DNA of 64,000 nucleotides from an uncultured Candidatus Peregrinibacteria bacterium (GTDB lineage Bacteria > Patescibacteriota > Gracilibacteria > UBA1369), in the NCBI GenBank assembly GCA_937858825.1, contig CALMAI010000027.1, positions 1 to 64,000 on the forward strand, in the 5' to 3' direction. Below are positions 56,765 to 57,544 of this stretch, piece by piece. The notes under the pieces were generated by a model. It was given only the letters and a program-made list of their open reading frames with translations. It was not told where the DNA came from and searched no databases. Both the position numbers and the translations under genes were made by a program. Position 1 is the first letter of the stretch; each line of letters starts with the position of its first letter.

Positions 56765-56797
56765 GGGACTTCAGGACAAATACTCCTTATCAGTCTT

Positions 56798-57188
56798 GTC
56801 GACATCGAGTCGACAGTGGACAGAAGGAAGAGACTTGAAGCTAGACATTTGTCGACATGCTGTCTACAATGTCGATAAGTTTGTCGACTCGATGTCGACG
56901 TAGTGTCAGTAGACAATGTATTTATGGCAGAAAATTTTCAAACAGACAGAAAAGCGGCTGCAAAACTGCTAAATGTGTCAGTCAGGACAGTAGACAGGTA
57001 CATTGCTTCAAATAGATTGTCTATTCAGCGTCGAGACAATAGAATTTGGCTTTCAAAAAAGGATATAGTTGAATTTAGGGATGGTCGACAAGTGGACACG
57101 TCTGATGTTGATATGTCTATAGACGTCGATAGTCAAAGTAGTGTAGACAGAAGCACCGCGGGTGTCGACTCATTGTCGACACCCGCGG
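56798..57188 (+). promoter_or_regulatory. Array of paired GTCGAC/GTCTAC sites in and around the HTH gene
   Basis: GTCGAC occurs at 56798, 56809, 56851, 56883, 56894, 57084, 57164 and 57175, and GTCTAC/GTAGAC at 56862, 56909, 56990 and 57143. Four pairs (56798/56809, 56851/56862, 56883/56894, 57164/57175) have starts exactly 11 bp apart, one helical turn. The last pair lies in a 33-bp perfect inverted repeat (57156-57188) inside the coding sequence. Confidence 0.85.
56842..56870 (+). promoter_or_regulatory. Promoter of the HTH gene with operator in the spacer
   Basis: TAGACA (56842-56847), 17-bp spacer, TACAAT (56865-56870). The spacer contains GTCGAC and overlaps GTCTAC, so the protein binding these sites would block its own promoter. 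Confidence 0.7.
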
Positions 57189-57544
57189 AAAAAATTTCCG
57201 CAAACAAAAAAGCACGTTCGGCATCCACCATTTATAAAAAACTCTACGAACAAACCCATGAAGAACTCAAAAACGCACAAAAACGCCTGGAAGGTGCCAA
57301 CTACCGAGTCGGACAACTGGAATCACTCGTAAAAGAGAGCGTCCCGCTTCTGGACCATCAACGCCTCCTTGGTGAAGAAAAGGCAGAAAGATTCCAATTG
57401 GAAGAAGAGGTGGAAACCCTCCGTGACAAAATGGAACGGATGAAAACAAAGATCAAAGAAGAGACCTTCAGTCGAAAAGCTTATCTGATAGCACTTTTTA
57501 TCATCCTGCTCCTCCAGCCGCTCTGGCTACTCCTTCTCCGCTAA
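56924..57544 (+). CDS. Membrane-anchored HTH DNA-binding protein with coiled coil
   Basis: 206 residues from ATG 56924. A MerR/excisionase-like HTH occupies ~8-50 (AAAKLLNVSVRTVDRYIASN and RIWLSKKDIVEF). A Ser/Asp-rich linker (~55-100) and coiled coil (~105-180) follow, and a C-terminal membrane helix (AYLIALFIILLLQPLWLLLL) ends the protein. It would bind DNA while tethered to the membrane, a layout recalling chromosome- or plasmid-anchoring proteins such as RacA, though without sequence similarity that I can see. It is surrounded by, and contains, its likely binding sites. Confidence 0.75.
   Translation: MAENFQTDRKAAAKLLNVSVRTVDRYIASNRLSIQRRDNRIWLSKKDIVEFRDGRQVDTSDVDMSIDVDSQSSVDRSTAGVDSLSTPAEKISANKKARSASTIYKKLYEQTHEELKNAQKRLEGANYRVGQLESLVKESVPLLDHQRLLGEEKAERFQLEEEVETLRDKMERMKTKIKEETFSRKAYLIALFIILLLQPLWLLLLR

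Follow-up and report, generated by a model that had tools for sequence, protein, structure and literature searches.

The locus and its gene

The stretch of DNA analyzed here, referred to as the window, comprises 64,000 nucleotides from an uncultured Candidatus Peregrinibacteria bacterium (assembly GCA_937858825.1, contig CALMAI010000027.1), and this report concerns one of its genes together with a dense array of short DNA words that lies in front of the gene and continues into its codons. The gene encodes a protein of 206 residues, in which an N-terminal winged helix-turn-helix (wHTH), a linker, a coiled coil, and a C-terminal membrane anchor follow one another. A word search of the window located GTCGAC eight times (56798, 56809, 56851, 56883, 56894, 57084, 57164, and 57175), GTCTAC once (56862), and GTAGAC three times (56909, 56990, and 57143), and four pairs of these words are spaced by exactly 11 bp (56798/56809, 56851/56862, 56883/56894, and 57164/57175). 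The 12 words compare with 0.16 expected per 400 bp at the rate of the rest of the window (Poisson P = 4e-19), and the word counts and four pairs that an earlier note, made from the sequence alone, had reported for 56798-57180 were reproduced exactly on recount. In relatives, the functional core is T(A/C/G)GACA, with the consensus TAGACA / TGTCTA(C), and the palindromic form GTCGAC is the variant favored by the genus of the window. Counted by this core, the locus holds 18 distinct sites, the majority upstream of the ATG at 56924 and approximately 8 within the gene. The features are as follows.

56924..57544, + strand: gene for the 206-residue wHTH, linker, coiled-coil, tail-anchored protein; ATG start at 56924 backed by homologues
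56797..56915, no strand: upstream array of T(A/C/G)GACA-type sites (word search; density peak at the matching place in relatives)
56797 and 56850, no strand: palindromic TGTCGACA within the upstream array (word search)
56810, 56817, 56842, 56861, 56870, 56882, 56893, and 56910, no strand: remaining sites of the upstream array (word search)
56842..56870, + strand: putative sigma-70-like promoter with TAGACA, one of the sites, as its -35 element (by match to the consensus only)
56954..57085, + strand: HTH_17/MerR-like winged helix-turn-helix (Pfam HTH_17 and structure model)
56990..57023, no strand: sites falling within codons of the HTH, at 56990 (GTAGACA, in the codons for T-V-D-R) and at 57018 (TGTCTA) (synonymous-codon test)
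57084..57181, no strand: linker array within the coding region, with sites at 57085, 57093, 57114, 57144, 57163, and 57174/57176
57156..57188, no strand: CCGCGGGTGTCGAC-TCATT-GTCGACACCCGCGG, a perfect inverted repeat of 14 bp that encloses the final 11-bp pair (sequence)
57182..57538, + strand: long helix that leads into the membrane helix; coiled coil in which a YR.GQLE region is conserved (alignment and model)
57476..57541, + strand: C-terminal membrane helix AYLIALFIILLLQPLWLLLLR, followed by a tail of approximately 1 residue (homologue comparison)

Three of the exact 11-bp pairs lie in the upstream array, and the final pair of the linker array has the same exact spacing. The inverted repeat seen around the latter in the window sequence, within the coding region, is predicted to form a highly stable RNA hairpin of -31.5 kcal/mol (z -7.6).

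A mechanical list of open reading frames placed the start of the gene at GTG 56903 instead of the ATG. The match to Pfam HTH_17 is weak and consistent (E 1.5e-5 for the window protein and 2.2e-9 for the best relative, with 10 of 10 members matched), and a single-sequence structure model has the order helix-helix-beta-beta, followed by one long helix. The linker between the HTH and the coiled coil varies among homologues. A terminal membrane helix is present in all 99 homologue sequences compared (a few of which share one genome) and ends no more than 10 residues from the C terminus, so that the protein has no extracytoplasmic domain. This architecture is established computationally, and the HTH, coiled coil, and C-terminal membrane helix named in the earlier note were all borne out by Pfam, the model, and the 99 homologues.

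Conservation of the gene and its sites

The protein is present in 81 of the 89 genomes of the order to which the window belongs and in 133 of the 192 genomes sampled from the class, among them genomes that read through TGA. The gene is single-copy in nearly every genome that carries it, sister orders included; beyond the class, matches are confined to the HTH portion, and the closest named record for the protein is a Candidatus Peregrinibacteria metagenome-assembled genome. The sites accompany the gene in nine or more families of the order and also in its sister orders. In an unbiased count, TAGACA/GTAGAC is the top hexamer around the HTH codons in most relatives, with up to 18 copies vs. 0.2-0.4 expected. 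Families f1, f2, f4, f7, f133, and f135-f139 have 6-24 core sites per 700 bp, usually 10-24, whereas the same scan yielded 0-4, usually 0-3, for the reversed word and 0.4-1.3 per 700 bp for the flanks; sister orders f142, f143, f145, and f146 have 4-12 core sites.

Site density has three peaks, one lying 60-200 bp upstream from the HTH anchor codon, one over the codons of the recognition helix, and one over those of the linker; it is near background downstream and low, with small bumps, farther upstream. The location of the array shifts by lineage: in some lineages 8-18 sites lie upstream and hardly any within the gene (18 and 1 at locus L074, 11 and 1 at L050), whereas others divide the sites between both. 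The extreme is genome G353, in which 44-bp tandem repeats, corresponding to four helical turns, provide approximately 57 core matches in about 1 kb over two contig ends. The G353 array (C3:190950-191464 and C5:1-420; L147 and L148) lies directly upstream of the gene and is apparently split across the contig ends.

Helical phasing and codon choice

Same-strand spacings in the upstream arrays cluster at 10-12, 22-24, 33-34, 44, 57-59, and 68-69 bp. At a helical phase of 11.25 bp the vector is 0.461, as compared with a null maximum of 0.18 (0 of 1000 random placements), and the phasing holds separately in every group tried (f1, f2, f4, f7, and the sister orders). In the linker, the spacings are a compromise with codon length (9, 12, 15, 21, 24, 27, 36, and 48). 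The earlier note had proposed comparing site conservation with synonymous codon choice, and this comparison was informative: the codons of the conserved T[VL]DR motif spell the site in 32 of 39 genomes with linker sites vs. 4 of 32 without them, a strong difference that carries no formal probability because related genomes are not independent. These computations show that the sites within codons are under selection at the DNA level. Between the window and the related genome G351, upstream site bases are identical at 64 of 64 positions, as compared with 95% elsewhere, and in-gene site bases at 47 of 50, a pair of genomes too close to decide the matter.

Repeats of GTCGAC/TGTCTA might alternatively be a by-product of coding, generated by V-D and M-S dipeptides and codon choice in a low-complexity linker. 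The linker sites do mostly encode VD, ID, or MS, and their spacing is bent toward multiples of 3; however, sites are equally dense in the non-coding upstream DNA, where they are helically phased, and the synonymous codons of T[VL]DR covary with the linker sites. This explanation is largely refuted and retains next to no probability.

Exclusivity of the cluster

In the 1.32-Mb genome of the window, GTCGACN5GTCGAC occurs at this locus only (three places; reversed control 0). Across the 89 genomes of the order, 90 of 120 tandem 7-mer pairs with 9-12-bp spacing lie at this gene, the arrays of G353 being counted as belonging to it; of the 30 off-locus pairs, approximately 11 are ELSTxCRQ codons and the other 19 or so are close to the reversed-control number. 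An even density of pairs across the genome, which the earlier note had named as fatal to its proposal, was thus not found: pairs concentrate here and match background elsewhere, and the computational searches revealed no comparable cluster at another locus. The off-locus sequence GTCGACAA(A/T)TTGTCGACA, which recurs in six genomes, was rejected as a target because it encodes the ELSTxCRQ motif and is a coding coincidence; the protein concerned is presumably BRO-N-like, as identified by eye. The ELSTxCRQ codons keep a near-palindrome, TGTCGACAA(A/T)TTGTCGACA, in six genomes (L141-L146). In the window itself, GTCGACA at 1332, 1599, and 1866 has an exact spacing of 267 bp, which suggests an internally repeated protein.

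Single sites behave differently from pairs. The word TGTCKAC occurs 236 times genome-wide vs. 320 for the reversed word and is therefore not enriched, and among the 100 matches listed (contigs C1-C18) distinct sites are at least about 100 bp apart. These 236 words, and a plan of HTH plus membrane helix, would suit a membrane-bound one-component transcription factor of the CadC/ToxR kind that acts on dispersed single sites, its own gene being the strongest target. Such regulators share the plan, but the present protein has no extracytoplasmic domain, and neither the word count nor the near-background number of off-locus pairs is what this explanation leads one to expect; we consider it improbable.

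Gene neighborhood and replication

The gene stands alone. On one side it has a divergent neighbor, of SLH type in the window (Pfam), beyond which lie genes that we take, from reading their sequences, to be ybeY and an rRNA-methylase-like gene; on the opposite side, within the order, are two convergent DUF881 genes (Pfam) and a gene that we likewise take to be murI. No nucleoside triphosphatase (NTPase) gene was noticed among the adjoining genes. In sister orders the neighbors differ and the site cluster is retained. The array could in principle serve the divergent neighbor, which is conserved in the order, or act in replication as an initiator, terminator, or iteron-like element, and the 44-bp repeats of G353 do resemble iterons. 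However, the array persists under changed neighbors (f7, f136, f146, and f143), no clear GC-skew switch was found at the locus in the sampled genomes, and dnaA is far off, which makes this role very improbable. In the closed 998-kb genome G322, GC skew is markedly negative, between -0.17 and -0.45, in each of the 40 stretches of 10 kb sampled round the chromosome (L121-L140), with no switch of sign. Some Microgenomates have a similar skew, which was read as one-directional replication, and Peregrinibacteria were described as typical (PMC7143001).

Proposed function

We propose that this tail-anchored protein cooperatively coats its own locus, regulates its own gene, and tethers the DNA to the membrane, a combination that we regard as about evenly balanced between right and wrong. 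The MerR-like wHTH protein would take its own locus as specific DNA target, its copies binding T(A/C/G)GACA sites on one face of the helix across about 400 bp that cover the promoter and the first part of the gene. The bound copies would be held together through their coiled coils and the membrane, the gene would repress or adjust its own transcription, since the sites overlap the promoter, and the locus would be kept against the inner face of the membrane, where it would act as a centromere-like anchor. That this protein reads the array is suggested by its HTH and by the co-occurrence of array and gene, and the tail anchor points to membrane tethering; cooperativity and autoregulation are likewise what we infer, and the promoter-like match overlapping the sites lends support to probable autoregulation.

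The most serious alternative is autoregulation pure and simple, in which an extended cooperative operator holds the protein level constant and the real job of the protein is something other than anchoring this locus, for example nucleoid-wide non-specific DNA tethering or some role at the membrane. The upstream sites overlap a promoter-like sequence with a site as its -35 element, MerR-like BldC forms cooperative multimers on direct repeats (PMC5859096), and the locus is distant from dnaA, all of which favor this reading. By contrast, the sites exceed the needs of an operator in number (up to 24, and approximately 57 in G353) and extend 250 bp into the gene, and the cluster is kept while its sites move far upstream or into the gene. 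This alternative is a substantial possibility, short of an even chance. Furthermore, a pure regulator whose sole specific cluster is at its own gene would seem pointless unless it had another job. The statement in the earlier note that in-gene sites go beyond autorepression and suit anchoring has gained from the conserved codons, the phasing, the mobile arrays, the tail anchors in all 99 homologues, and the lack of a recognizable ParB, with the anchoring itself still conditional.

A role of the proposed anchor at the level of the chromosome is plausible because nearly the whole order has the gene, no second specific cluster was found, and standard ParB is missing there. No ParB match was found in the genome of the window, and matches above the cut-off occur in 9 of the order's 89 genomes and in 1 of 40 from the wider class. 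A recurrent protein of approximately 440 residues in G135, G198, G268, G046, and others has an N-terminal domain with a weak likeness to ParB (E about 1e-7 to 1e-11) that falls below the ParB cut-off.

Several observations weigh against the anchor proposal. Where the gene and dnaA, taken as a proxy for the origin, share one contig, they are 419 kb (G322), 550 kb (G376), and 312 kb (G387) apart; proximity of the locus to the origin, which the earlier note had suggested examining, is therefore not supported, and the distances of 312-550 kb speak against a role in origin segregation. ParB is likewise missing from families without this gene, so that the two distributions are not complementary and mutual exclusion of ParB and anchor is rejected. 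The protein persists with 0-7 recognized sites in families f3, f5, and f6 and in the TGA-recoded orders, and no strong candidate for a substitute hexamer was found in f3 and the recoded lineages. The earlier note had named homologous genes without the sites as a refutation, and its proposal came through this check in that most homologues carry sites, although some lineages have the gene and lack them. Structure-based homology to Xis, BldC, and RacA was also rejected, the matches of the single-sequence models being weak and none significant. In the genome of the window, the dnaA match (G000:C23:2421-2901) is divided between two frames with in-frame stops, perhaps through an assembly error.

The suggestion of a new anchoring or segregation system is strengthened with respect to anchoring, whereas the distance from dnaA and the siteless lineages count against segregation of the origin; any help from the tether in segregating or positioning the chromosome is speculative. 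In its fullest form, that of a chromosomal centromere or anchor which needs a single protein and no ParB, is shared by most lineages of the class, and is partly written into the codons of its own reader, the proposal is tentative and on balance unlikely. The system provides a nearly universal, specific, and testable candidate consisting of one protein, one locus, and one motif, and an uncommon case in which selection for DNA sites acts within the codons of a conserved DNA-binding domain itself. If true, it may represent a new way of holding or separating chromosomes in bacteria without the usual segregation machinery. On how candidate phyla radiation (CPR) bacteria without ParABS position and separate their chromosomes, the literature searches made here found no paper.

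Comparison with known systems

ParABS systems have a ParB family protein, unlike the genome of the window, in which none was matched. In ParR/parC of plasmid R1, phased repeats of about 11 bp around the promoter of the partition genes are both operator and centromere; ParR is a ribbon-helix-helix protein that works with an actin-like motor, whereas no motor gene was found adjoining the window gene. Closer in plan is Par of plasmid pSK1, a single-protein partition system of Staphylococcus, with which the window gene shares the layout of a lone gene for a DNA-binding protein, an adjoining repeat array, and no NTPase gene. The repeats of pSK1 adjoin the par gene, and the protein autoregulates; binding of the window protein to its array would be the counterpart. 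The pSK1 system is plasmid-borne and its protein has DUF536, whereas here a core gene of the chromosome encodes a protein with a membrane helix and has sites within it.

RocS, RacA, and pSK1 Par are all MerR-type wHTH and coiled-coil proteins that tether DNA (PMC6593407; PMC11500499). RocS, a chromosome segregation protein of Streptococcus pneumoniae, resembles the window protein in its N-terminal MerR-type wHTH, coiled coil, and C-terminal membrane anchor, and it is described as linking DNA to the membrane without a need for ParA (PMC11500499). RocS has an amphipathic helix, beside which lies a DUF536 segment with conserved glutamines, whereas the anchor of the window protein is a true membrane helix, and no Pfam match to DUF536 was obtained at E up to 0.1 in 10 members. 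A phased array at its own gene, as found here, was not described for RocS in the part of the source available. RacA, the chromosome anchor of Bacillus subtilis, likewise pairs a MerR-like wHTH with a coiled coil; it recognizes centromere-like repeats and relies on DivIVA to fasten the DNA to the membrane (PMC6593407). Its sites are dense near the origin and chromosome-wide and its anchoring is indirect, whereas the window system has a single cluster, located at the protein's own gene, together with a direct membrane helix. The NCBIfam RacA model matched 1 of 10 members weakly (E 0.0014) and not the window protein itself; judged by sequence, with no DUF536 and no real RacA match, the protein does not belong to the RocS/DUF536 or RacA families. 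Finally, BldC of Streptomyces has a MerR-like wHTH that is cooperative on direct repeats of varying number (PMC5859096), but it comprises 68 residues without coiled coil or membrane anchor and regulates other genes. By analogy, the window protein likely works as a single-protein partition or anchor system, in which the plan of a DNA-tethering wHTH and coiled coil is already known and the new element is an array both inside and beside the protein's own chromosomal gene.
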